The position numbers and the translations under genes are program-made. The notes below the pieces were generated by a model. The model worked only from the letters and a program-made list of their open reading frames with translations, was not told the origin of the DNA and made no database searches. Below, one piece after another: positions 6,529 through 33,631 of a DNA stretch of 64,000 nt. This stretch comes from Halobellus clavatus (GTDB lineage Archaea; Halobacteriota; Halobacteria; Halobacteriales; Haloferacaceae), in NCBI RefSeq assembly GCF_900107195.1, contig NZ_FNPB01000008.1, forward strand, positions 1 through 64,000. The letters run 5' to 3'. Positions within the stretch are counted from its first letter, which is position 1; each line of letters opens with the position of its first letter.

Positions 6529-7095
6529 ATGTCAGGCCGCGTATACCGACTTCACTCGACACTGGAACTGCCCCTCGAAGATGTCGAAGAGTACCTGAAC
6601 GGTGACCCGGACCTGCCCCCCGAGGTCAACGACGTCGAGGTGACCCGTCGAAACAACACGCTCATTCTCAAGGCCGTCGCCGCGGAGGACAACCTCAGCA
6701 AGTACACGCCGACCGCTCAGTTGAAGGCCAGCATCACGGAGAATCGCGTCTACGAGGAAGAACCACCGCGGGCGGGCGCGCCGCGCTGGGAGGAAGAAGA
6801 AGAAGAGATCCCGTCCGAACTGGTCGAGTTCGCCTGTTTCAAAGGCGACCGCGAGACCGTGCTTCAGAACACGGCGCTGCAGTATCCGATGTTCCTCGTC
6901 CTGCGCGAGATCGCGCTGCTCGCAGAGAAGGGGACGCTCACCGCGATCACCGAAGTCGACGACGAACTCCACGCCCACCGGATCGTCGAGGGCGAGGAGC
7001 GCCCGGCGAGCATCGAAGTCGTCGAGAACCCCTCGAAGAGCGAAAACGGCTCGAACGGCGTCAACTGGCGCGACAACAAGTTCATCTCGGACTGA
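6529..7095 (+). CDS. conserved haloarchaeal protein of unknown function
   Basis: A 188-residue soluble acidic protein. It begins MSGRVYRLHSTLELPLEDV and carries a Glu-rich stretch near the middle (WEEEEEEIPSELVEFACFKG). The C-terminal region has a YPMFLVLREIALLAEKGTL helix. I recognise it as a widely conserved haloarchaeal family (DUF7110-like, from memory) but know no function. No catalytic motif, signal peptide or membrane segment is visible. A TATA-like cctataag lies around 6437, predicting a leader of roughly 60 nt, which is unusual in this mostly leaderless setting. Confidence 0.8.
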   Translation: MSGRVYRLHSTLELPLEDVEEYLNGDPDLPPEVNDVEVTRRNNTLILKAVAAEDNLSKYTPTAQLKASITENRVYEEEPPRAGAPRWEEEEEEIPSELVEFACFKGDRETVLQNTALQYPMFLVLREIALLAEKGTLTAITEVDDELHAHRIVEGEERPASIEVVENPSKSENGSNGVNWRDNKFISD

Positions 7096-7176: not shown

Positions 7177-8514
7177 TCAGCGCCGATCCTGCTTGTACGG
7201 GGCCTTCGCGACGGTCGCACTGATCTCCTTCTCGACGTGGCGCTCGACGCTGTCGTTACCGGAGCCGTCGGCCTCGCCCCAGGTGAGCGTGACCTCGGTC
7301 CCGGGCTCGGCGTATTCGGTGTCGACGAGCGCGAGCGACAGCATCTCTCGGTGGTTGTAGATGTAACTCATCCACTTCGAGACGCCGACGTGTTCGCCGT
7401 CTTTCGTGACCTCGTCGTAGTGACACGCCGACGAGCGGGGCGCCGGCATATTCATGAATTTGTGCGACGCACCCTCGCGGAATAGCGACGCGAACACGTC
7501 CACGACGTCCTCGTCGTCCCACACGAGCGTGACCTTCTTGCGCTCGGGGTCGTCCATCTCGGCCTGCAGGGCCGCCTTGCCGACGAAGTCGTGATCGAAG
7601 TCGATAATGTGGTCGTAGCCGACCTCGATCGGCGTGACGTAGTAGTCTTCGACGTCGTCGGAGTCGTAGCTCCCACCGATGGAGATGAGTCCCCGGCGGA
7701 CCGAGAGCCACTCTCGGAAGTCCTGCATCTCCCCGCCGCTGTAGATCGCGGGGAGCGGGAGCGGCAGCCACCCGAGCACGACGTTGGCGCTCTGGTAACT
7801 CTTCCCGCCGAGGCGGCGGATGTCGTGGTCCTCGCCGGCGTCGAGGATCGCTCCTTTCACCGTGTCGGCGTCGTCGTAATCGCCCCAGAACTCGAAGCCG
7901 GCCTCGCCCGCCATCCCGTGACGCAGCAGGTAGGCGTCGACGCCGTCGATCGAGATCTCTCCGAACCGGAAGAAGCCCAGGTCGGGGAGGTCGCCGTCGA
8001 CCGCCTCGGCCATCACGTCGACAGCGTCGGGGCCCTGGACCTGATACCGGAAGTTGTTCGGATCGTCACCGGTCGCGGCCGGACGAGGCTGCATCTCGAC
8101 GTCGATGTCGTACGCTCCGGTCGCCGCCTGGTAGTCCAGCCAGTTGTGTGCGGCTGCTGCACCGACGCTGAGGAACTGGTCCTCGGCCTCCCGGAAGAGA
8201 ATGGCGTCGCCGATGAGGTAGCCGTCCGGATTGGCGACGACGAGCTGTTTGGCTTGCCCGACGTCGAACTGGCTGAAGTCGTTGACCGCGTAGTCACTGT
8301 AGAGATCGATGGCCTCCCGGCCGGTGATCCGGAGGTCGGTCATATGGTACGACTGATCCGCGAGCGCGACGCCCTCCTGCCACGCGCGCTGTTCTTCGAT
8401 CCAATTTGTGTACTCGTCAGGGACGTTGGTGAAGTTCCCGAGTCCGAGGTCGCGCAGCAGGTCGACCTCGCTCTCCGCAGACTCCAGTACGTCGGCCAAG
8501 GTACGGTCTGACAT
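7177..8514 (-). CDS. LigM-like tetrahydrofolate-dependent O-demethylase (GcvT superfamily)
   Basis: A 445-residue aminomethyltransferase-fold protein that resembles bacterial LigM, which transfers the methyl of vanillate or 3-O-methylgallate to THF, more than glycine-cleavage GcvT. Conserved blocks are NWIEEQRAWQEGVALADQ, YHMTDLRITG, RHGMAGEAGFEFWG, PLPLPAIYSGG and VEDYYVTPIEVGYDH. Tyr240 in GGKSYQSAN aligns by eye with the catalytic Tyr247 of LigM. The ATG at 8514 is preferred to a TTG five codons earlier; an AT-rich box (ataatact, 8545-8552) lies about 30 bp before it. The substrate is unknown; a methoxylated acid is inferred from neighbouring TRAP, aldolase and dehydrogenase genes. Confidence 0.8.
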   Translation of the reverse strand: MSDRTLADVLESAESEVDLLRDLGLGNFTNVPDEYTNWIEEQRAWQEGVALADQSYHMTDLRITGREAIDLYSDYAVNDFSQFDVGQAKQLVVANPDGYLIGDAILFREAEDQFLSVGAAAAHNWLDYQAATGAYDIDVEMQPRPAATGDDPNNFRYQVQGPDAVDVMAEAVDGDLPDLGFFRFGEISIDGVDAYLLRHGMAGEAGFEFWGDYDDADTVKGAILDAGEDHDIRRLGGKSYQSANVVLGWLPLPLPAIYSGGEMQDFREWLSVRRGLISIGGSYDSDDVEDYYVTPIEVGYDHIIDFDHDFVGKAALQAEMDDPERKKVTLVWDDEDVVDVFASLFREGASHKFMNMPAPRSSACHYDEVTKDGEHVGVSKWMSYIYNHREMLSLALVDTEYAEPGTEVTLTWGEADGSGNDSVERHVEKEISATVAKAPYKQDRR

Positions 8515-8584
8515 ATCGCAATCACACAATCGGGAAGACCAGCATAATACTTTATGAAAGAGGTGCGAGCGCGACGGGGGTGAC

Positions 8585-8743: not shown

Positions 8744-8779
8744 ATGATTCGCACGCCGACTGAGGTGGACTCCCGATGA
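8744..8779 (+). CDS. 11-codon leader ORF overlapping the ACT gene (ATGA)
   Basis: ATG at 8744 opens the peptide MIRTPTEVDSR, whose TGA (8777-8779) overlaps the ATG of the ACT-domain gene at 8776. A TATA-like gtatacttat at 8704-8713 would place the transcript start near 8735, so this ATG would be the first on the mRNA. A Shine-Dalgarno-like gaggtg (8762-8767) sits inside it, correctly spaced for the downstream start. That suggests coupled translation. Whether the peptide itself matters is unknown. Confidence 0.4.
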   Translation: MIRTPTEVDSR

Positions 8780-9300
8780 GCGACACACAGACCGAGGTCC
8801 GGGCGTACACACTCCGACTGGAACTGATCGACGAACCCGGCGAACTCCTCCGCTCACTCCGGCCGATCGCGGACAACGGCGGGAACCTCCTCTCGATCTT
8901 TCACGAGCGTGGGAACGTCACGCCGCGCGGCCACATTCCCGTCGAAGTCGACGTCGAGGCGACGCCGGAACGCTTCGAGCGGATCATCGACGACCTGCGC
9001 GACGCCGGTATCAACGTCATCCAGGCGGGCACCGAGCGCTACAGCGAGGGGCTCACGGTCATTCTCTCGGGCCACGTCATCGACACCGACCTCTCGAACA
9101 CGCTGTCACGGATTCAAGAGTCCGCGAACGCGAGCGTCACGGATCTCTCGCTGGCCGCGCCAGACGGGACGAGCGATGTCTCCAGCGCCCGAATCCGCAT
9201 CGCGGCCGAGCGGGGTGCGACCGACGACGTCTTGGGGAAACTCCGATCGATCGCTTCGGAGAAGGATCTCCGACTCGTCGAACCGCTCAAACCGGCCTAA
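8776..9300 (+). CDS. ACT-domain amino-acid-binding regulatory protein
   Basis: A 174-residue protein with an N-terminal ACT domain (YTLRLELIDEPGELLRSLRPIADNGG) and a second, weaker regulatory half. In haloarchaea this family normally lies directly upstream of homoserine dehydrogenase, and is presumed to sense an amino acid of the Thr/Met branch. Here the next gene is the convergent aroD and no hom gene is seen, so the pair is broken in this genome or hom lies elsewhere. The start at 8776 has the SD-like gaggtg. No catalytic residues are expected. Confidence 0.82.
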   Translation: MSDTQTEVRAYTLRLELIDEPGELLRSLRPIADNGGNLLSIFHERGNVTPRGHIPVEVDVEATPERFERIIDDLRDAGINVIQAGTERYSEGLTVILSGHVIDTDLSNTLSRIQESANASVTDLSLAAPDGTSDVSSARIRIAAERGATDDVLGKLRSIASEKDLRLVEPLKPA

Positions 9301-9330: not shown

Positions 9331-10074
9331 TCAGTTCGGGAGGCCCAGTTCCGAGGGGACGGCCACGTCGTCCTCGACCGCCTCGATCCGTTCGAGGTTC
9401 GCCCCGTCGATCCGGGTCGACTCGACGAGCGCCCTGAGCTTGCCGAGGGGGATCTGCCCGGGCGCGTACTCGCTGTCGTCGTCGAGGAGCGGGGCGTAGC
9501 CGAGCTTCGAGCCGTAAATGTGCCCGATGACGCGCGTGTGGCTGCCGGTCTCACCCATCGCGATACCCGCAGCGCTGATCCCGTCTTCGGTCGCCTCGCG
9601 GAGAGCCGTCAGGAGCGTCAGCGTGTCCGAGAGGTCCTCTGGGTAGACTGCGACCTTGGCGATCTCGCCGTAACTCGCACACTGGTCGATGATCGCTGTG
9701 AGAACGTCCTGCTCGGGGGTCGACTCGAAATCGTGATGTGAGATGATCAGCCGGACATCGTTCTCCCGGAACTCGTCTAAGATCCACTCCTTCGCCCGCG
9801 CGGTTTCCAGTTCGATGTCGACGTACGCGACGTCCTCGAACCGTGACGCTGCGAAGAGCGTGTCGAGCCGTCCCTGATCTCGGGCCTTGCCGCCGAACCA
9901 CTGATTCCGGTTCGTCGCGATGATCGGAAGTTCGCCGTCGTACGCTTCGAGTTGTTCGATCGGGTCCTCGGCCTTGTCCATCCGGAATTCGACGATGTCC
10001 GCCTTCCCCCGGACGTCCGCCTCGCGTGTGAGATCGTTTGTGGTGGCCGCGAGAGCGAAGTCCTCGATTTTCAT
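9331..10074 (-). CDS. aroD: 3-dehydroquinate dehydratase, type I
   Basis: A 247-residue TIM-barrel dehydratase of the shikimate pathway, converting 3-dehydroquinate to 3-dehydroshikimate through a Schiff base. Visible active-site residues are His113/His114 in LIISHHDFESTP and Lys140 in IAKVAVYPEDL. FGGKARDQGR and the late MGETGSHTRVIG block bind substrate. The ATG at 10074 fits the TATA-like box at 10099-10108; a GTG at 10080 is the alternative. It may serve aromatic amino-acid synthesis or, given the island around it, quinate/shikimate use. Context does not decide between them. Confidence 0.93.
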   Translation of the reverse strand: MKIEDFALAATTNDLTREADVRGKADIVEFRMDKAEDPIEQLEAYDGELPIIATNRNQWFGGKARDQGRLDTLFAASRFEDVAYVDIELETARAKEWILDEFRENDVRLIISHHDFESTPEQDVLTAIIDQCASYGEIAKVAVYPEDLSDTLTLLTALREATEDGISAAGIAMGETGSHTRVIGHIYGSKLGYAPLLDDDSEYAPGQIPLGKLRALVESTRIDGANLERIEAVEDDVAVPSELGLPN

Positions 10075-10080
10075 TGTCAC

Positions 10081-10337: not shown

Positions 10338-10988
10338 TCACTCGTAAGTAAGGTCCCACTCCCTGTTGAGCAGCCAGTCGTCGAGTTTCTCCAGGGGGTC
10401 TTCGACCACGTGACTCCCGTGGCTCACCAACACCGTCTCGATGTCGTGTTCGAACAGTTTCCCCAGATTCCGCTCGGCCGCGGCGTGGCTGTAATCGTTG
10501 AACTGTGCAGCGGGCGGCACGAGGTGGCCCGCGGGTAACCCACGTCGATCCGATCCCTCCAGTGAGTCGCAGGCAATGAGGGTCGACTCCCCTTCGAGCA
10601 GAAAACTACTGTTTGCGACCGTGTGCCCGGGTATTCGAACGACGCGGATACCACCCGGCAGTACGTCGCCGTCGCCGAAGTGATCGTCCGCGTTGTAGTC
10701 CAGCGCGTCGTAGAACCCGCGCGACCCGCCGGGAACGAGCAGTTCCGGATCGAACGCTTCCATCAGCGCGGGGACGCCCCCGAAGTGTCCCTCGTCGCCG
10801 TGAGAGACGATGAGACGGTCGACCCCGCCGTACTCCGATTTGAGCGTCGCCGCCAGGTCTTCGCCGTCGTCGGGGAACCCGGCGTCGATGACGGTGACCG
10901 TACCGGTGGGCCGGTCTTCGAGTACGAAGACACGCACGTGTTCCAACTGGACGGTGTCCACACTCTCGATGGGACTGTTGATCGACAT
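10338..10988 (-). CDS. metallo-beta-lactamase-fold protein with altered metal motif (copy 1)
   Basis: A 216-residue MBL-superfamily protein beginning MSINSPIESVDTVQLEHVRV. The usual HxHxDH metal loop reads SHGDEGHFGG: the first and last His are kept, the second His is Asp and the metal-site Asp is Gly. Later metal-site segments IPGHTVANSSF, LIACDSLEG and LVSHGSHVVED are present. A hydrolase with an atypical site, or a binding protein, is therefore likely. The ATG at 10988 aligns with the start of the paralogue at 11382. It is transcribed away from that paralogue across about 390 bp. Confidence 0.8.
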   Translation of the reverse strand: MSINSPIESVDTVQLEHVRVFVLEDRPTGTVTVIDAGFPDDGEDLAATLKSEYGGVDRLIVSHGDEGHFGGVPALMEAFDPELLVPGGSRGFYDALDYNADDHFGDGDVLPGGIRVVRIPGHTVANSSFLLEGESTLIACDSLEGSDRRGLPAGHLVPPAAQFNDYSHAAAERNLGKLFEHDIETVLVSHGSHVVEDPLEKLDDWLLNREWDLTYE

Positions 10989-11381
10989 CGTCACCTTAGG
11001 ATCGCCGCTGATAATACATAAATGAGTATGTCGGCTCTCGATTCTCGGGAGTCGCCGCCGACCGACGGGCGGGCCAGCCCGCTCCCGGGCCGCTCGATCT
11101 CGTGGCCCGGATCGAACTGCTCCTCGGTCACCCGTGCGCTGTGATTTCAACGATAGTGGAACGCTACTGCCCGACTGTACGGGATACATAACGATTGTAC
11201 GGCTGTTATCTGCCTGTACGACCGCCCGCTCGTGGGAATGTTTTCCAACGATGTTGAAAATCTTCACAGGCGGGGTGAATCCTCCTTCACAGGGAGTGCG
11301 CGGGGTCGCCCCCGGCGGTCCTGCCCTGTGAGGGTCAAGAGCAACAGAATTATGTACGAGAACGAGAGAACGCGAGGCACG
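10989..11381. promoter_or_regulatory. divergent regulatory region between two MBL-fold paralogues
   Basis: No convincing gene is visible. A minus-strand TATA-like element (ataatacataaatg, 11012-11025) serves the left gene, and aattatgt (11349-11356) the right one, about 30 bp before its chosen ATG. Between them tgtacg occurs three times (11176-11181, 11196-11201, 11215-11220) around a gggatacataacgatt stretch, which could be operator sites. Nothing else is recognisable. Confidence 0.5.
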
Positions 11382-12056
11382 ATGACTGTCAGTACCGTCG
11401 TCGACGGAATCGACCAGATTCAGTTCGAGCACGTCCGGGTGTTCGTCCTCGAAGATATGCCGCGCGAGGGGGCGGTCACGCTCGTCGATACGGCGTTCGA
11501 CGAAAACGGTGCGGAACTCGTCGACATTCTCGAATCAGAATACGGGCGTGTGGATCGCGTCATCCTGACGCACGGGGATCACGGACATCACGGCGGCCTC
11601 TCCCACGTGGTCGACGCCTTCGACCCCGAACTGGCGATGCCGGCCGACGAGTCGAAACTCTACGAGCACCTCGAGGAAGCGGGCATCGACGTTGAACCAG
11701 ACGTGGCCTACGAGGACGGCGACGTCCTCGCGGGGAACATCCGGGTCATCCAGGTCTCCGGCCACACCGAAGCCACCTCCGCCCTCCTGCTGGCGGATCG
11801 AGACATCCTCATCTCCGGTGACGTGCTGGACGGCTCCGACCGCGGTGGACTGCCCGCCGGCTACCTGCTTCCGCCACCGGCGCTGTTCAATGCGGACCAC
11901 GAAGCTGCCGAACTCAACCTCTACAACCTGCTTGGTCACGACTTCGACACTCTCCTGGTCTTCCACGGCTCTCACGTCTTCGAGGATCCGAAGGAGAAAC
12001 TCGACGCCTTCCTCGTCGAGCGCGAGTGGAACGAGTGGGACCCGCGGACCGACTGA
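11382..12056 (+). CDS. metallo-beta-lactamase-fold protein with altered metal motif (copy 2)
   Basis: A 224-residue paralogue of the divergent neighbour, alignable from MTVSTVVDGIDQIQFEHVRV to the C-terminal VFHGSHVFEDPKEKLDAF. Its metal loop is THGDHGHHGG, again lacking the canonical second His and the Asp. VSGHTEATSALL and ILISGDVLDG supply the other usual positions. The ATG at 11382 is chosen because it aligns with the paralogue and has a TATA-like element about 30 bp upstream; an in-frame ATG at 11352 would overlap that element. Substrate unknown. A role in the surrounding catabolic island, for example as a lactonase, is only a guess. Confidence 0.8.
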   Translation: MTVSTVVDGIDQIQFEHVRVFVLEDMPREGAVTLVDTAFDENGAELVDILESEYGRVDRVILTHGDHGHHGGLSHVVDAFDPELAMPADESKLYEHLEEAGIDVEPDVAYEDGDVLAGNIRVIQVSGHTEATSALLLADRDILISGDVLDGSDRGGLPAGYLLPPPALFNADHEAAELNLYNLLGHDFDTLLVFHGSHVFEDPKEKLDAFLVEREWNEWDPRTD

Positions 12057-18103: not shown

Positions 18104-19111
18104 TCACAGCCCGGCGTCCTGTCTGGCCGAGTGCGGCAGCGGTTCGCCCTCGATTCCGGCCTCGGTGCACGCGGCGACCATCTCGGCCATCCGGTCCCGC
18201 GTTCCGATGCTCGCACTCCCGATGTGTGGCGTCACGACCAACCGCGACGGTGCGTGTCGGAGCAGCGGGTGGTCACCGGGGAGCGGTTCCGGGTCGGTCA
18301 CGTCCAGTCCGGCGCGGGCGATCCACCCCTCTTCGAGAGCGGTGTCGAGCGCGTCAGTGTCGACGACGCCGCCCCGACTCGTATTGACGAGGATCGAGTC
18401 GTCCGGCATCTGCCGGAGTTCCGACGCACCGATCAGCTCCTCGGTCGACTCCACGAGCGGCACGTGCAGGGATACGAAATCGCTCTCGGCGAGCAGTTCT
18501 TCGCGGTCGACGTACGTCGCGTCGACCCCGACTTCGGCGAGTTCCGCCTCGCGATCGGGCTTTCGGGACCGACCGCTGTATCGAACCGCCATCCCGAAGC
18601 CCGCAGCCCGTCGGGCGGTCGCCGTGCCGATGTTCCCGAGTCCGATGATGCCCAGCGTCGCGCCGTGGACGTCGGGCCCGGTCAGGAGCGTCGGCCCCCA
18701 CGTCTCCCACTCGTCGGCCTCGACGTACGCGTGGCCCTCTACCGTTCGGCACGCGCACGTCATCAGCAGCGCCCACGCCAGATCTGCGGTCGTCTCGGTT
18801 AGCACGCCGGGGGTGTGACCGACGGCCACGTCGCGCTCGATTGCCGCTTCCAGATCGATATGGTCGTAGCCGACGGAGAACGTGCTCACGACGGAGAGGT
18901 CCGACGACGCGTCCAGCACGTCGGCGTCGATCGTATCCGAGAGCAGACAGACGAGTCCGTCGGCGTCGAGGTCTGCGAGCCGTCTCTCGATGTGTGCCTT
19001 CGACGGTGGAAGTTTCTCGTCTCGGACGACCACCTCGTAGCGGTCGCGGAGCCGTGCGAGTCCGGCCTCGGGTACCTTCCGGGTCACGTAGACGGTCGGG
19101 GTGGCTGTCAT
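18104..19111 (-). CDS. D-2-hydroxyacid dehydrogenase (glyoxylate/hydroxypyruvate reductase-like)
   Basis: A 335-residue NAD(P)-dependent dehydrogenase of the D-isomer family. The substrate domain is interrupted by a Rossmann domain with GIIGLGNIGTATARRAAGFG. Catalytic residues are visible: Arg in ILVNTSRGGVVD, Glu in GLDVTDPEPLP and His in LVVTPHIGSASIGTR. It interconverts a 2-keto acid and a D-2-hydroxy acid, most like glyoxylate or hydroxypyruvate reductases. It diverges from the RraA-type aldolase across less than 100 bp. A linked role, reducing a 2-oxoacid made by the aldolase, is an inference. Confidence 0.9.
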   Translation of the reverse strand: MTATPTVYVTRKVPEAGLARLRDRYEVVVRDEKLPPSKAHIERRLADLDADGLVCLLSDTIDADVLDASSDLSVVSTFSVGYDHIDLEAAIERDVAVGHTPGVLTETTADLAWALLMTCACRTVEGHAYVEADEWETWGPTLLTGPDVHGATLGIIGLGNIGTATARRAAGFGMAVRYSGRSRKPDREAELAEVGVDATYVDREELLAESDFVSLHVPLVESTEELIGASELRQMPDDSILVNTSRGGVVDTDALDTALEEGWIARAGLDVTDPEPLPGDHPLLRHAPSRLVVTPHIGSASIGTRDRMAEMVAACTEAGIEGEPLPHSARQDAGL

Positions 19112-19199
19112 TGCTTTCCGATGGACGTTCGCTGATGAAATCGTTTGGTGTCGAGCGTCGATCAGTAGCTTAATGTGCGCGATCGATCTCTTCGGACGT

Positions 19200-19889
19200 A
19201 TGCACACGATCGAGCCCGATGTCGAGCGACCGGACCGCGACGTCGTCGCCGCGTTCGAGGAGATCCCGAGCACCATCGTCTCCGACGTGACGGGCAACGT
19301 GGGACGAACGATGGACGCCGATCTGTCACCGGCCTCCGACGGCGTCGATCTGGCCGGGACCGCAGTCACGGTCACGGCCGCGCCCGGAGACAACCTCATC
19401 ATCCACAAGGCGATCACGATGGCAAGCCCCGGAGACGTGCTCGTCATCGACTGTGACGGCTACACCGGCGTCGGCCACGTCGGGGAACTGATGTGTGAGT
19501 CCTGTCGGGCCAACGACCTCGCGGGGCTCGTCATCGACGGCGGATACCGCGACAGCCGGGAGATCGCCGAGATGGACTTTCCCGTCTACGGCCGGGGCGT
19601 GAATCCACAGGGGCCCCTCAAGCAGGACCCGGGCTCGGTGAACGTCACGGTGTCCTGCGGCGGCGTGAGCGTCGACCCTGGCGACGTTGTCGTGGGGGAC
19701 GACGACGGCGTTGCGGTCGTCCCCGGCGAGGACGCGCAGGACGTCCTCGAACTCGCACGCGCGAAACTCGAGTCCGAGGAGGAGACCCGCGAGGAGATCC
19801 AGGACGGCACGTATCTCTTCGAGCGCAACGGATACGACGAACTGTTCGAGGACTTAGACGTCGTCGGCCCCGAAGACTCGATCCAGTAA
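19200..19889 (+). CDS. RraA-family aldolase/decarboxylase (HMG/CHA aldolase-like)
   Basis: A 229-residue RraA-fold protein. It has the family's substrate loop PGDNLIIHKAITMASPGDVLVIDC and the motif VIDGGYRDSREI, whose Arg-Asp pair is the substrate/metal-binding signature of class II 4-hydroxy-4-methyl-2-oxoglutarate and 4-carboxy-4-hydroxy-2-oxoadipate aldolases. Keeping those residues argues for an enzyme rather than an RNase E inhibitor. Pyruvate or oxaloacetate would be the expected product. The ATG at 19200 follows a TATA-like tagcttaat (19166-19174). The actual substrate is unknown. Confidence 0.83.
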   Translation: MHTIEPDVERPDRDVVAAFEEIPSTIVSDVTGNVGRTMDADLSPASDGVDLAGTAVTVTAAPGDNLIIHKAITMASPGDVLVIDCDGYTGVGHVGELMCESCRANDLAGLVIDGGYRDSREIAEMDFPVYGRGVNPQGPLKQDPGSVNVTVSCGGVSVDPGDVVVGDDDGVAVVPGEDAQDVLELARAKLESEEETREEIQDGTYLFERNGYDELFEDLDVVGPEDSIQ

Positions 19890-20042
19890 GACTCCCAGCG
19901 CTGGTCAGCCACACACGCCGGATGCCACCCGGCGGGCGGTTTCGCTTGAGAAGGCCTACGGCCAGCGGCGAACGCCCACGGCCGATTCAATATCGTTGTA
20001 ATTCCCCACAGGGCTTAAGAAGGCCCGCACGAAGCAGTACGT

Positions 20043-20819
20043 ATGGCCAACCCGGATGAATCGAACGCTCGCGGGCTACAGAGCGTGGAACGGTCTTTCG
20101 AGATTATCGAATACTTACGCAGTGGAGGCGGCGCGACGCTCTCTGAGGCGGCCGACGACCTCGGGATGGCGGTGAGCACCGCCCACATTCACCTCACGAC
20201 GCTCGTCGACACCGGGTACGTCGTGAAAGACGACGATGTCTACCGCTGTGGGTTCGAGTTCCTCCAGACGGGCGGGCAGCGCCGTGACGGACTGGCGCTG
20301 TATCAGGCGGCGAAGCCCGAACTCGACGAACTGCGCGACGAGACCGGCGAGCACACGAACGTTACCGTCGAAGAGCGTGGCTACTCGGTCCAGCTATACA
20401 AATCGGAGAACCCCCATTCGATCGACGACGACGCGTCGCTGGGCGATCACTTTTATCTCCATCTGACGGCGACGGGGAAGGCGATTCTCGCGGAACTACC
20501 CGACGAACGCGTCGCGGAGATCCTCGATCAGCGTGGGATGCCGGCACTGACTGACGAGACGATCACCGACGAGGATGTCCTCTACGACGAACTGGCGGCC
20601 ATCCGCGACCGAGGCTATTCGATCAACAACGGCGAGCACTTCCCGGGGGTCTGTGCGATCGGTACGGCAATCGCGTCCGACCCCGACGGAGCCATCGGCG
20701 CGATCTCCATCAGCGGCCCGCGGAGCCGAATCACCACCGAGCGTATCGAAGACGAACTCGCGCCCGCACTGCTGAACAAGAAGAACATCATCGAGTTGAA
20801 AATCCGGCAGTTCGAGTGA
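20043..20819 (+). CDS. IclR-family transcriptional regulator
   Basis: A 258-residue regulator with an N-terminal winged helix (SVERSFEIIEYLRSGGGATLSEAADDLGMAVSTAHIHL region) and a C-terminal IclR effector domain (LHLTATGKAILAELPDERV, then INNGEHFPGVCAIGTAI and AISISGPRSR). IclR proteins sense small carboxylic or aromatic acids and control nearby catabolic genes. It follows the RraA aldolase and lies within the TRAP island, so local control is likely. A short cttaag element lies 25-35 bp before the ATG. Whether it activates or represses cannot be told. Confidence 0.92.
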   Translation: MANPDESNARGLQSVERSFEIIEYLRSGGGATLSEAADDLGMAVSTAHIHLTTLVDTGYVVKDDDVYRCGFEFLQTGGQRRDGLALYQAAKPELDELRDETGEHTNVTVEERGYSVQLYKSENPHSIDDDASLGDHFYLHLTATGKAILAELPDERVAEILDQRGMPALTDETITDEDVLYDELAAIRDRGYSINNGEHFPGVCAIGTAIASDPDGAIGAISISGPRSRITTERIEDELAPALLNKKNIIELKIRQFE

Positions 20820-28954: not shown

Positions 28955-31456
28955 TCAGTCGTCTGCCGGTTCCTCGCTCGCGCCGTCGTCGAACTCGAAG
29001 CTGACGTTCTCGCTCGGGCTGATCGAGAGGCCGACCTCGTCGAGTTCTTCCCAGACCGTGTCCGGGGTCATCGGCATCTCGACGTGAGAGGTCCCCGCGT
29101 GGGACATCGCGTCCACGACCGCGTTGACGATCGCCGGCGGCGACCCGACCGTCGGCGACTCGCCGACGCCCTTCGCGCCGATCGGGTGGTGCGGCGACGG
29201 CGTGACGGTGTGGCCCGTCTCGAAGTTCGGAATCTCGTTCGCGGTGGGGAGCAGGTAGTTCATGAAGTCCCCGCCGGTGACGTTGCCGTTGTCGTCGTAG
29301 GTGACGTGTTCGAGCATCGCGGTGCCGATCCCCTGCGCGAGACCGCCGTGGATCTGCCCTTCGATGATCATCGGATTGATGCGGTTACCGCAGTCGTCGA
29401 CCGCGACGAACTTCTCAAAGTCGACCTCGCCGGTCTCCCTGTCGACCTCGACGACGACGATGTAGGAGCCGAACGGATACGTCATCTCCGGCGGGTCGTA
29501 GTAGTTCACGGCCTCCAGTCCGGGCTCTTCGTTGCCCGGGGAGTTCATGTACGCCCCGGCGGCGATCTCGGTGATCGTGATCGAGCGGTCGGGTGCGCCA
29601 GCGACGTGGAACTCGCCGGATTCGCGGTCCCACTCGATGTCTTCTTCGGCCGCTTCGAGTTCGTTGGCCGCGATCGACTTCGCCTTGTCGCGCACCTTGC
29701 GCGCGGCGACGGCCGCGGCCGCGCCAGCGACGGGCGTCGAACGGGAGCCGTACGTGCCGAGCCCGTACGGTTCGGTGTCGGTGTCGCCGTGTTCGACGGT
29801 GATGTCGTCGACGTCCATCCCCAGTTCCTCGGCGACGATCTGTGCGAAGGTCGTCTCGTGACCCTGCCCCTGCGTCTGGACGCCGATCCGGAGGACCGCG
29901 TTTCCGGTCGGGTTCACGCGGAGGTCCGCCGAGTCGAACATCTCGATGCCGGCGATGTCGCACTGCTTGCCGGGACCGGCCCCGACGACTTCCGTGAACG
30001 AGGAGATGCCGATGCCGATGAGCTTGTCAGCGTCCTCGGCGATCCGGCGCTGCTGCTCCTCACGGTAGTGCTCGTAGTCGGCCATCTCCAGGGCCTTATC
30101 GAGCGCCTTCTCGTAGTCGCCGGAGTCGTAGTTCCACCCGGTCGCGCTCTCGTAGGGGAACGCGTCCGAGGGGATGAAGTTCCGCCGTCGGATCTCCGCC
30201 GGATCCACGTCGAGTTCGTCGGCGAGTACCTTCACCATCCGCTCGATGAGGTACACCGCCTCCGTCACCCGGAACGAACACCGGTAGGCGACGCCGCCCG
30301 GCGCGGTGTTGGTGAAGGCGCCGGTCAGTGACCCGTAGGCCGCGTCGACGTCGTAGGACCCGGTGAAGATGTTGAAGAACCCGGCCGGGAACTTCGAGGG
30401 CTGGGCCGCGGCGTTGTACGCGCCGTGGTTGGCCAGCACGTCCACCTTCACGCCCTGGATGACGCCGTCCTCGGTGGCGGCGATCTCGCCCGTCATGTCG
30501 TAGTCGCGGGCGAAGCCGGTGGTCTGAATGTTCTCCGAGCGCTCTTCGATCCACTTCACGGGCTGCTCCAGGACGTACGAGGCCGCGGCGGCCACGACGT
30601 ACCCCGGGTAGATCGGCACCTTGTTCCCGAAGCCGCCGCCGACGTCGGGGCTGACGATCCGGACCTTGTGCTCGGGGATGCCCGACACCTGCGAGAACAG
30701 CGTCCGGTGGGCGTGCGGCGCCTGCGAGGTCATATGGACCGTCATCTTGTCCTTGCCGGGGTCCCAGTCGGCGACCGCACCGCAGGTCTCGATCGGCGCG
30801 GGGTGGAGCCGCTGGTACTCCATCTGCTCTTCGACGGTCACGGCCGCCTCGTCGAACACCTCTTGGGTGGCCTCCTTGTCGCCGGTCTCCCAGTCGAAGA
30901 TGTGGTTGTCCTCCTGATCGTCGAGTTCGTCGCGGATGAGCGGCGCGTCGTCCTCGAGCGCCTCCTCGGCGTCGACGACCGGTTCGAGGACGTCGTACTC
31001 GACTTCGACCTTTTCGGCCGCGTCCTTCGCCGTGTAGCGGTCTTCCGCGATGACGGCGGCGACTTCCTGACTCTGGAACTTGACCTTGTCGTTGACCAGC
31101 ACGTCCTGGGTGTCGTCCATCAGCGTCGGCATCGTCGCCAGGTCGTGCTCCAGCAGGTCGTCGGCGGTGAGAACGGCGACGACGCCGTCGAGCGCCATCG
31201 CGCGGGAGCCGTCGATGTCCTCGATGCGGGCGTGGGCGTGGGGGCTCCGAACGATCTCACAGTGGAGCATTCCCGGTTTCTTGATGTCGTCGACGTAGTT
31301 GCCGCGCCCGGTGATGAAGCGCTTGTCCTCCTTTCTGGTCACTTCCTCGCCCATTCCGCCGCGGCCGTGTCCGCAGTGCTTCTCGGGCTGTGGGCCGCCG
31401 TCGTCGGCGTGTTGATGCTCCTCGGGTTCGGCCGTGAGATCCGGTTCGCTGCTCAT
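28955..31456 (-). CDS. coxL: aerobic carbon monoxide dehydrogenase, large subunit (form I CoxL)
   Basis: An 833-residue molybdopterin subunit of Mo-Cu CO dehydrogenase, which oxidises CO with water to CO2. The diagnostic form I active-site loop AYRCSFR is at 390-396, with Cys393 as the expected copper ligand. [16 protein letters not shown] carries the catalytic Glu, and [13 protein letters not shown] and [16 protein letters not shown] bind the cofactor. The core aligns well with Oligotropha CoxL from [17 protein letters not shown] onward. The N-terminal 35 residues are a His/Cys-rich extension ([16 protein letters not shown]). It overlaps coxS by ATGA. Confidence 0.96.
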
Positions 31457-32154
31457 TGGTCTCCTCCGTCTGCGTCGAACTGGGAGTCTGCTCCCTCGAT
31501 GTGGTCGTAGGTCGATTCAGCCGACGGGCCGCCGCAGCAGTTCTCGACGCCGCAGTCGAACTCCGACGTCGTGTCTCCGTCGAACACGTCCGCCGCGTCC
31601 GCGCTGGGTTCGGGACCGTCGGTCGCGCCGCGATCCTCGGCGACGACCCCGCCGTCGGCGGCCGCCTTCTCTTCGAGTTCTTCGGCGGCGTACTCGATGG
31701 AGCTCACGATGTTCTGATACCCCGTGCACCGACAGAGGTTGCCGCTGATCGCGTCGCGGATCTCCGGTTCCTCGGGATCGGGATTCTCGTCTAAGAGTGC
31801 CTTGCCCGCCATCAGCATCCCGGGCGTGCAGTAGCCACACTGGAGACCGTGTTCCTCTTTGAAGCCCTCCTGCAGGGGGTGGAGTTCCGGTCCGGCCTCG
31901 GGGAGATCCTCCATCCCCTCGACGGTGAGGATCTCGCTCCCGTCGGCCTGCGTGGCGAACATCATACAGGACTTGATCGGCTCGCCGTCCCGCAGGACCG
32001 TACAGGCCCCGCAGTTGCCGGTGTCGCAGCCGATGTGCGTGCCCGTCATGTCCAGATCCTCGCGGATCGCGTGGACGAGCAGTCGTCGCGGTTCGACCTC
32101 GATGGTGTGTTCGGTGCCGTTGACAGTCAGCGTGATTTCTCGTTCGTCAGTCAC
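31453..32154 (-). CDS. coxS: CO dehydrogenase small iron-sulfur subunit (CoxS)
   Basis: A 233-residue [2Fe-2S] subunit carrying electrons from the Mo site to FAD. Cluster ligands are Cys43, 48, 51 and 63 (plant-type motif [10 protein letters not shown]) and Cys106, 109, 141 and 143 ([19 protein letters not shown]). Bacterial CoxS is about 166 residues. Here an acidic extension of about 65 residues follows and ends with a Cys-rich [11 protein letters not shown] (Cys201, 206, 207). The start is GTG at 32154, overlapping the coxM stop as GTGA; the 3' end overlaps coxL by ATGA. Confidence 0.95.
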
Positions 32155-33038
32155 GGTGTTACCCTCCGTTTGACGACCCCGGCGCGTTCGGCGGCGTCAC
32201 CGAGCGCGCGCTGGGTCAGTACGTCGATCATCCGCTCTTTGTACGAAGCGTCGCCGTGTTCGTCGGATTCGGGGTTCGATTCCTCGGCGGCGAGTTCGCC
32301 GGCCGCCTCGAAGAGGTCGGCGCTGGGGCGCTCGCCTTCGAGATGCGCTTCGGCCTCCCGAGCGCGCGCGTTCGTGATGTCCACGGCGGTCATCCCGATG
32401 CCCGCGTCCGTAATCCGCCCGTCGTCGTCGAGGACGAGGCGCGCCGCGACGCCAGCCATCGCGTAGTCGCCGGTCTTGCGCTTCAGCTTGTGGTAGGCGC
32501 TGCCCTCTCCCGCTTCGGGGACGGGGACTCGCGCCTCGGTGACGAGTTCGTTCTCGCCGAGCGAGGTGTCGTACGGCAGCAAGAACAGTTCGTCCGCCGG
32601 AATGACCCGTTCGCCGTCCGGGCCCTGTGCGACGACCTCGCCGTCGTGGGCGAGCAGGACCGATCCCCAGTCGCCCTTGGGGTCGGCCTGTGCGATCGAG
32701 CCGACGATCGTGCCGCGGTTCCGGATCTGCGGGTCCGCGACGAGTGGGGCCGTGTCGGCGAAACTGCCGTACTTCTCGTCGATGAGGTCTGAATCTTCCA
32801 CGTCGGCGTGGCGTGCGAGCGCGCCGAGTTTGAGGTAGCCGTCCTCCTCGTGGAGGTAATCCAGGGAGTCGATGCCGTTGATGTCGACGACGGTGTCGGG
32901 GCGGGCGAGCCGGAACCGTAGCATCGGCACAAGGCTCTGTCCGCCGGCCAGGATGGTCGGGCTGTCGAGGCTCTCGAGGAGGCTCACCGCCTTGTCCACC
33001 GTCGTCGGTTCGTGGTGTTCGAACGCTGCTGCTTTCAT
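32151..33038 (-). CDS. coxM: CO dehydrogenase medium FAD subunit (CoxM)
   Basis: A 295-residue flavoprotein subunit of the CODH complex that passes electrons to the membrane quinone pool. FAD-binding motifs are [18 protein letters not shown] near residue 30 and [20 protein letters not shown] near residue 105. The length is as in bacterial CoxM. The start [18 protein letters not shown] at 33038 overlaps the coxG stop by ATGA, and the end overlaps coxS by GTGA, giving an unbroken translationally coupled run coxG-M-S-L. Confidence 0.95.
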
Positions 33039-33631
33039 AGCATGTTCCGGAGTCTGTCGGTGACGCCGCTGTTCGTCTCCTCGTCGACGTCGGACATCTG
33101 CTTCTCGATGCTTCCGAAGAAGTTGTTCACGATCTTGTTCGCGACCGGATTGATGACCCGCGAGCCGAGCTGCGCGATGCGGCCCGACACGTCGGCTTCG
33201 GTCCACCACTCGATCCGCGCCCCGTCGCCGTCATCGAGTTCGTGGATCCGCATCCCGGAGTTCATACTGAAACTGCTGCCCGAGGCGTCACCGCCGCCCG
33301 AGGCGAGCATCTCGAACTCCTCGTCGTCGCGGTCGTCGATGGTGACCGTCGTCTCGAAGCGCGGCTTGACGCTCCCGACACCGACCTGCATCAGGGCGGC
33401 GTACTTCTGCCCCGCGACGAACGCGCGGTCGGCGACGGTGTCCGGATCCGCCTCCGGAAGCATCTCGACGTCTTCTTTGGCCTCGTACTCGTCGAAATTG
33501 AAGTCCTCACCCATCGGGGTAATGTACTGACACCCCTTCAGGGAGTCGCGGACCGCCATCGGGTCCGACAGGACGATCCAGGCTTTTTCGGGCGGTACTC
33601 CGTCTAACTCGAATTCTCCTTCAAATTCCAT
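33035..33631 (-). CDS. coxG: CoxG, CODH-associated SRPBCC-fold protein
   Basis: A 198-residue START/SRPBCC-like protein beginning MEFEGEFELDGVPPEKAW, with LSDPMAVRDSLKGCQYITPMG in the usual CoxG position and WWTEADVSGRIAQLGSRVINPVANKI near the end. Bacterial CoxG is reported to recruit CO dehydrogenase to the membrane or bind quinone. The usual hydrophobic C-terminal anchor is replaced by a polar tail. It is the first gene of the minus-strand cox operon, with a TATA-like cttttaagta at 33681-33690 about 50 bp upstream. Confidence 0.9.
   Translation of the reverse strand: MEFEGEFELDGVPPEKAWIVLSDPMAVRDSLKGCQYITPMGEDFNFDEYEAKEDVEMLPEADPDTVADRAFVAGQKYAALMQVGVGSVKPRFETTVTIDDRDDEEFEMLASGGGDASGSSFSMNSGMRIHELDDGDGARIEWWTEADVSGRIAQLGSRVINPVANKIVNNFFGSIEKQMSDVDEETNSGVTDRLRNML

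Follow-up and report, generated by a model that had tools for sequence, protein, structure and literature searches.

Among the closest described relatives of the gene studied here is ligM of Sphingobium SYK-6, whose product (PDB 5tl4, 5x1i-5x1n) is a vanillate/3-O-methylgallate O-demethylase dependent on tetrahydrofolate (THF). The available part of one article places it in a ligM-metF-ligH operon (PMC6888825), and a MetF homolog with an oxidative direction in SYK-6 is the subject of a conference abstract (PMC12585457). The dicamba demethylases Dmt, Dmt50 and Dmt06 are further bacterial THF-dependent O-demethylases, and relatives of Dmt06 carry the database annotation aminomethyltransferase family protein, according to excerpts of PMC9404685. 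Aromatic demethoxylation in the archaea Archaeoglobus and Methermicoccus is carried out by the corrinoid system MtoABCD (PMC8359953, in excerpt). As far as such excerpts go, the archaeal demethoxylation in the literature that we found is corrinoid-based and occurs in anaerobes. A 2019 eLignin review names five archaeal isolates, all of them halophiles, that grow on aromatics, and no mention of folate-based archaeal demethylation was found in its available sections (PMC6486533). Likewise, no report of a haloarchaeal THF O-demethylase was found in the open-access PMC literature, mostly at the level of titles and abstracts. In a sequence-only reading of this DNA, too, the reaction was one not seen described for haloarchaea.

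Here we describe a gene at positions 7177..8514 (minus strand) of the window, the whole 64,000-nucleotide stretch of Halobellus clavatus DNA that was analysed. It probably encodes a THF-dependent aryl-methyl-ether (O-)demethylase of the LigM/DesA kind, and it belongs to a large haloarchaeal family of paralogs. This assignment is based on homology, fold, a catalytic tyrosine, paralogy, gene neighbourhoods and purifying selection; THF as the acceptor, an aromatic methoxy substrate and the direction of the reaction we infer. The Dmt proteins would be of the same THF O-demethylase type, and differ in being bacterial and in that their substrate is known. By contrast, Mto, in the part of its description available, comprises a corrinoid protein and probably an H4MPT carrier and is not a single GcvT-fold THF enzyme.

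The open reading frame is intact. It may start at an ATG at 8514, giving 445 residues, or at an in-frame TTG at 8529, giving 450; the ATG agrees with orthologs such as that of Halobellus rufus, which begins MSGTTLQD and is 82% identical to the window protein. In a phmmer search, residues 5-447 of the 450-residue form aligned with residues 4-458 of LigM 5tl4 at an E-value of 9.2e-104 (350.6 bits), a match for which chance is negligible and which bears out the earlier claim of similarity over the whole length of LigM. The best-scoring NCBIfam family was the syringate O-demethylase DesA (NF047633; 491.9 bits over residues 11-447), and LigM (NF047885) gave 413.7 bits; both scores are under the curated equivalog cut-offs of 800 and 580 bits, respectively. 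Scores for GcvT, TMAO demethylase and DmdA were 86.3, 67.9 and 55.6 bits. A Pfam scan of the 450 residues returned GCV_T only (124 bits) and no FAD domain.

An AlphaFold2 model of the protein, for which a 124-row alignment of window and locus proteins served as input, had a pLDDT of 94.2 and a pTM of 0.92. It matched seven LigM entries at Z 51.7-52.6, with an rmsd of 1.6-1.8 over 435-441 residues, and the next fold matches were GcvT (Z 36.6), dimethylglycine dehydrogenase (32.7) and the DMSP demethylase DmdA (PDB 3tfh; 31.5), which is also a GcvT-fold THF methyltransferase. A tree of 85 rows, comprising all haloarchaeal rows and about a third of the bacterial rows, was built by a quick method and rooted on GcvT and DmdA-like proteins that the H. 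clavatus genome itself encodes. The LigM/DesA superclade was split from these GcvT and DmdA-like proteins with an SH-aLRT of 99 and a branch length of 1.06, so that DmdA-like proteins fell outside it. The window gene lies in a Halobellus-only clade of 6 rows (support 100), whose sister, here called the island clade, consists of 9 rows and spans Halobellus together with five further lineages (support 99); the two clades jointly, 15 rows, had a support of 100. The bacterial rows, including LigM and two sphingomonad proteins over the DesA cut-off (L109, 909 bits; L154, 896 bits), formed one clade (100). These rows came from the best 80 matches to patterns built from the eight paralogs described below; identical sequences and matches spanning less than roughly 380 residues of the query (two L150 fragments) were left out of the row set. 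Because basal bacterial lineages may be missing from such a sample, no direction of transfer between bacteria and haloarchaea is claimed.

That Pfam knows the protein only as GCV_T would suit a GcvT or dimethylglycine-dehydrogenase folate domain mis-read as LigM, a reading that we regard as almost certainly wrong. The GcvT models scored 86.3 (NF001567) and 73.1 bits (TIGR00528) against cut-offs of 300 and 235.85, the tree split and the better fold match to LigM point the other way, and three other genes of the genome, next to those for the H and P proteins, encode GcvT (named by eye). GcvT was rejected as an identity on these scores, the tree and its fold Z. DmdA was rejected on its score (55.6 bits; NF009133 cut-off 410), tree position and fold Z, and dimethylglycine/sarcosine dehydrogenase was rejected as the 450 residues hold no FAD-dependent oxidoreductase domain fused to GCV_T. 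The phylogeny suggested in the sequence-only reading thus puts the gene on the LigM/DesA side, apart from GcvT and DmdA; the placement among GcvT or dimethylglycine dehydrogenase domains that it had named as contrary evidence did not occur. By broad criteria, namely full-length homology, the catalytic tyrosine and grouping in the tree, the window protein is LigM/DesA-like.

The window protein is about 40% identical to LigM over the fold, and the two share full-length homology, fold, the catalytic tyrosine and a folate-site glutamate. Tyr240 (codon 7795..7797, minus strand; ATG numbering), the tyrosine of GGKSYQSAN, aligns with chain position 251 of 5tl4, which by counting is native Tyr247, the residue that we take to be catalytic in LigM. 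Tyrosine fills this column in all 78 bacterial rows and in 43 of the 46 haloarchaeal ones. Both this tyrosine and the segment PLPLPAIYSGG (residues 251-261; 7732..7764, minus strand) had been singled out beforehand, and both are present as described. Glu208 (codon 7891..7893, minus strand) corresponds to LigM Glu215, to which we ascribe a folate-site role, and is invariant in 124/124 aligned rows. In the same way, Gln54, His57, Phe181, Glu208, Tyr240 and Trp249 take the places of LigM Gln57, His60, Phe188, Glu215, Tyr247 and Trp256, all presumably active-site residues. Unlike LigM, the window protein has Ala119 (codon 8158..8160, minus strand) in place of Arg122, no counterpart of Tyr29, phenylalanine for Tyr31 and a score below the family cut-off. 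Arg122, which we assume contacts the substrate carboxylate, is arginine in 74/78 bacterial rows and in none of the 46 haloarchaeal rows, which clearly distinguishes the haloarchaeal active site from that of every bacterial row except four. A published confirmation of this role was not found in the open-access PMC literature, and such a carboxylate contact is not known to be required for substrates other than benzoates. With Tyr, His, Gln, Glu and Trp kept, Arg122 and Tyr29 lost and Tyr31 changed to Phe, the methyl-transfer machinery is conserved and the substrate side altered. Since Arg122 is missing from every haloarchaeal row, the substrate probably differs from that of LigM and DesA; it may be a non-benzoate or even a non-aromatic compound.

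This pattern bears on whether the protein is a genuine vanillate, syringate or 3-O-methylgallate demethylase with the same function as bacterial LigM or DesA. Such an enzyme would account for the 40% identity, the same fold and the retained tyrosine, and we nonetheless consider it unlikely: the bit scores (492 of 800 and 414 of 580) are under both equivalog cut-offs, even though DesA is the best NCBIfam family, and the loss of the Arg122 equivalent speaks against a straightforward enzyme for vanillate or syringate. These three compounds, named for assay in the sequence-only reading, are therefore less likely than it implied. The genome also lacks a protocatechuate/gallate dioxygenase of LigB type (PF02900) or intradiol type (PF00775) in a Pfam search, and a LigM-style route from vanillate through protocatechuate 4,5-cleavage was rejected for it on that basis. 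A gentisate-dioxygenase-like cupin is present at 199 bits, below its cut-off of 442. Three haloarchaeal rows are without the Tyr, His and Trp, two from the same genome as the window (C21:6219-7436 and C22:109922-111145) and one from another (L069 of G257). On their residues, these paralogs probably do something else and could be a separate enzyme type.

The gene is not the only one of its kind; it is one of eight full-length members in its genome, found among 17 places with a GCV_T domain, and the other seven are 42-66% identical to the window copy. A haloarchaeal origin and eight paralogs in one genome set it apart from LigM. Members occur in 11 of 17 Halobellus genomes, 1 to 14 in each, which offers a testable case of paralog expansion in one archaeal genus. 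In a sample of the class, 13/292 genomes (5/77 genera) had a member at E 1e-60, and in a sample of the phylum 3/294 did, all Halobellus; as the class and phylum searches scored the best 5-8 candidates per genome, these negatives are not absolute.

The window copy sits among housekeeping genes, outside any island, unlike ligM in its operon. The order purNH, purB, a glucose-dehydrogenase-like gene, GfcR, DUF7110, the LigM-like gene, an ACT-like gene and AroD was found in 8/8 other Halobellus loci. The conserved neighbours are a DUF7110 protein (6529..7095, plus strand; PF23422), a divergent ACT-domain-like protein (8776..9300, plus strand), named by eye and without a match in the Pfam scan, and AroD, a type I 3-dehydroquinase (9331..10080, minus strand; PF01487). 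purNH (1012-2661), identified by eye and by a 38% blastp match of a PurU reference, had been described as adjoining; it is in the window, but 4.5 kb away and not an immediate neighbour. A blastp search of the 64-kb window for MetF, FolD, C23O and HpaI-like genes gave none. THF C1 genes are thus absent around the window copy and present around its sister clade, and because the copy lies outside the islands, the case for its assignment comes from its family, its active site and the context of the sister clade. Near the orthologs of H. rufus (L087) and of G288 lie an amidohydrolase, a Rieske ferredoxin (both by Pfam in H. rufus) and an IclR gene; G535, probably H. rufus itself, has them at 100% identity.

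The housekeeping surroundings, far from any island, could also indicate a drifted paralog whose role was lost or changed after duplication from an island gene. A truncated ortholog fits this idea: in G288 the gene (C1:579467-580471; L232 6968-8017) is shortened to 350 residues, which suggests loss in that species and shows the gene to be dispensable. We judge drift quite improbable. Counting that of H. clavatus, the ortholog is intact in 8/9 Halobellus genomes carrying the gene, the active-site residues are kept, and dN/dS was 0.17, 0.21 and 0.19 against three orthologs, so the window gene is under purifying selection.

The neighbourhoods of the island clade were compared in five non-Halobellus loci. 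Genes in the fetched stretches were called by a composition score, and many were named by eye, with examples scanned against families. MetF was found in 3/5 loci, a fourth having it 11 kb away, FolD and PurU in 3/5 each, PabAB in 4/5, a C23O-like (catechol 2,3-dioxygenase) gene in 4/5, an HpaI-like aldolase and a thioesterase in 5/5 each, the CoA ligase ACS1 in 4/5 and IclR in 3/5; FolP, of folate synthesis, is among the island genes together with PabAB. The Halosolutus locus had no THF genes within its 17 kb. The LigM-like gene of Halarchaeum rubridurum is flanked by MetF (PF02219) on one side and FolD (PF02882, PF00763) on the other; PurU (PF00551 with ACT) comes beyond MetF, and this 17-kb stretch also contains PabAB, a C23O-like gene and an aldolase. 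On a plasmid of Halostagnicola larsenii, annotated FolD, aminodeoxychorismate/anthranilate synthase and dihydropteroate synthase genes are near the LigM-like gene. The neighbours MetF, FolD, PurU, PabAB and FolP lend independent support to the THF dependence claimed earlier from the sequence. As in the ligM-metF-ligH operon, the islands pair a LigM-like gene with MetF and THF-oxidising genes, and compared with the operon they have FolD, PurU, PabAB, FolP, an extradiol dioxygenase, a CoA ligase and IclR in addition. Yu et al. 2025 (Commun Biol 8:323) reportedly surveyed LigM-MTHFR gene sets.

Within the H. clavatus genome, six stretches hold the other seven members; an IclR-type regulator is present in 6/6 and parts of a branched-chain-type ABC transporter in 5/6. 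At 233-252 kb of C18, genes for a C23O-like dioxygenase, HpaI-like aldolase, VOC protein, CoA ligase, amidohydrolase and Liv transporter are followed by MetF-like, LigM-like, IclR, hydroxyacid dehydrogenase, second LigM-like and CoA ligase genes, with Pfam backing for MetF, HpaI and the amidohydrolase. This MetF-linked order also occurs in H. rufus, H. captivus and on a plasmid of H. limi. At C18:149-166 kb, a folC-folP fusion, formate-THF ligase, C23O-like gene, molybdopterin oxidoreductase (read as formate dehydrogenase) and pabA-like gene lie together; all were identified by Pfam except the C23O-like gene, which was matched by sequence. A further cluster variant is found on the H. limi plasmid NZ_CP031313.1 at 36-62 kb (L187), where three LigM-like genes are clustered and accompanied by CoA transferases, a gene resembling enoyl-CoA hydratase and a member of the RraA family.

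Three VOC proteins of 311-317 residues scored 237-245 bits for catechol 2,3-dioxygenase (cut-off 320) and 205-216 bits for HpaD. The VOC protein of the C10 locus in the H. clavatus genome gave E-values of 3e-31 to 7e-27 with solved catechol 2,3-dioxygenases and of 2e-36 with a chain deposited as catechol 1,2-dioxygenase. The His, His and Glu positions, which we take to be the expected iron ligands, are kept in 4/4 aligned C23O-like proteins. C23O matches of at least 500 bits occurred in 9/292 class genomes, each of which belongs to the 13 that are LigM-like-positive, and weaker matches also in 6 LigM-like-negative genomes. By genus, C23O and LigM-like genes coincided in 4/4 (Fisher p 3.7e-6); Fisher values ignore the kinship of rows, except in part the genus-level ones. 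MetF-like genes were present in 71/292 class genomes, comprising 13/13 LigM-like-positive and 58/279 negative ones, and two copies were present in 7/13 positive versus 1/279 negative genomes. MetF is thus not island-specific, but an extra MetF copy is nearly so. The island MetF-like proteins are divergent, at about 60 bits versus the TIGR00676 cut-off of 294, and over the Pfam threshold.

The island data also weigh on the idea that the LigM fold was re-used here to demethylate, with THF, an N- or S-methyl compound or a non-aromatic methyl ether, which seems to us rather unlikely. The loss of LigM Arg122 and Tyr29 would be in keeping with it, as would a fold family that includes DmdA and dimethylglycine dehydrogenase and a window copy without island-type ring-cleavage or C1 genes beside it. 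The genome further has two DmdA-like proteins and GCV_T proteins of 857-912 residues, by which methylated osmolytes look like a food source. Against this, the sister clade adjoins C23O-like genes in 4/5 non-Halobellus loci, close relatives of the island dioxygenase are confined to LigM-like-positive genera, and the LigM fold match is at least 15 Z units above those of GcvT, dimethylglycine dehydrogenase or DmdA.

Under the preferred reading, an aryl-methyl-ether demethylase, the methyl group would be moved from a methoxylated aromatic to N5 of THF, yielding a phenol and 5-methyl-THF, with Tyr240 as the putative catalytic acid/base. The methyl group could then be oxidised to formate, or passed into C1 metabolism, by the reverse action of MetF together with FolD and PurU (or formate-THF ligase). 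In the sister-clade islands, the extradiol dioxygenase encoded nearby would break the ring of a catechol-type product, and the ring-cleavage product might proceed through an aldehyde dehydrogenase and the HpaI-like aldolase. The loss of Arg122 would fit an uncharged ring, and as a guess guaiacol can be named, whose product catechol would suit the dioxygenase; a CoA thioester is an equally speculative substrate, given the CoA ligases. We see about an even chance that several haloarchaeal families carry a self-contained methoxyaromatic island with a re-shaped LigM-like demethylase, folate synthesis, C1 oxidation and extradiol meta-cleavage, aerobic, folate-based and separate from corrinoid Mto, with up to 14 paralogs in Halobellus, presumably one for each methyl ether. 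The LigM-like genes and their island context suggest an unreported archaeal way to eat plant-derived aromatics. If real, a folate-based aerobic haloarchaeal route would add a chemistry, would explain the use of plant-phenol methyl groups in brines and salterns and would provide a relative, stable in salt, of an enzyme that is wanted for converting lignin.

Other C1-related genes of the H. clavatus genome were also noted. One DmdA-like gene (C18; L050 8639-10096, plus strand) scores 242 bits for NF009133 and lies near SHMT and a second MetF-like gene; another (C10; L052 8604-9968, minus strand) scores 235 bits (cut-off 410 for both). At C18:131-141 kb (L051) there are three GCV_T proteins of 857-912 residues, probably dimethylglycine/sarcosine dehydrogenase-like, near electron-transfer flavoprotein-like genes named by eye. 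Three glycine cleavage sets (T, H, P; by eye) on C10 (L053), C16 (L054) and C26 (L055) represent an unusual redundancy in C1 supply.

Within the window, two divergent metallo-beta-lactamase-fold genes, about 51% mutually identical, lie at 10338-12056, and most Halobellus loci retain one or both of them near AroD. Between 12 and 21 kb are genes for a zinc dehydrogenase, parts of a TRAP transporter (permease by eye), a 2-hydroxyacid dehydrogenase, an RraA-like aldolase (PF03737) and IclR; the last three, at 18104-20819 by the TRAP genes, are a possible catabolic unit. Any link of this catabolic set to the LigM-like gene is putative. A molybdenum hydroxylase of the xanthine/CO dehydrogenase type, its large subunit confirmed by Pfam, is encoded at 28955-33209 and is surrounded by maturation-like genes (by eye).
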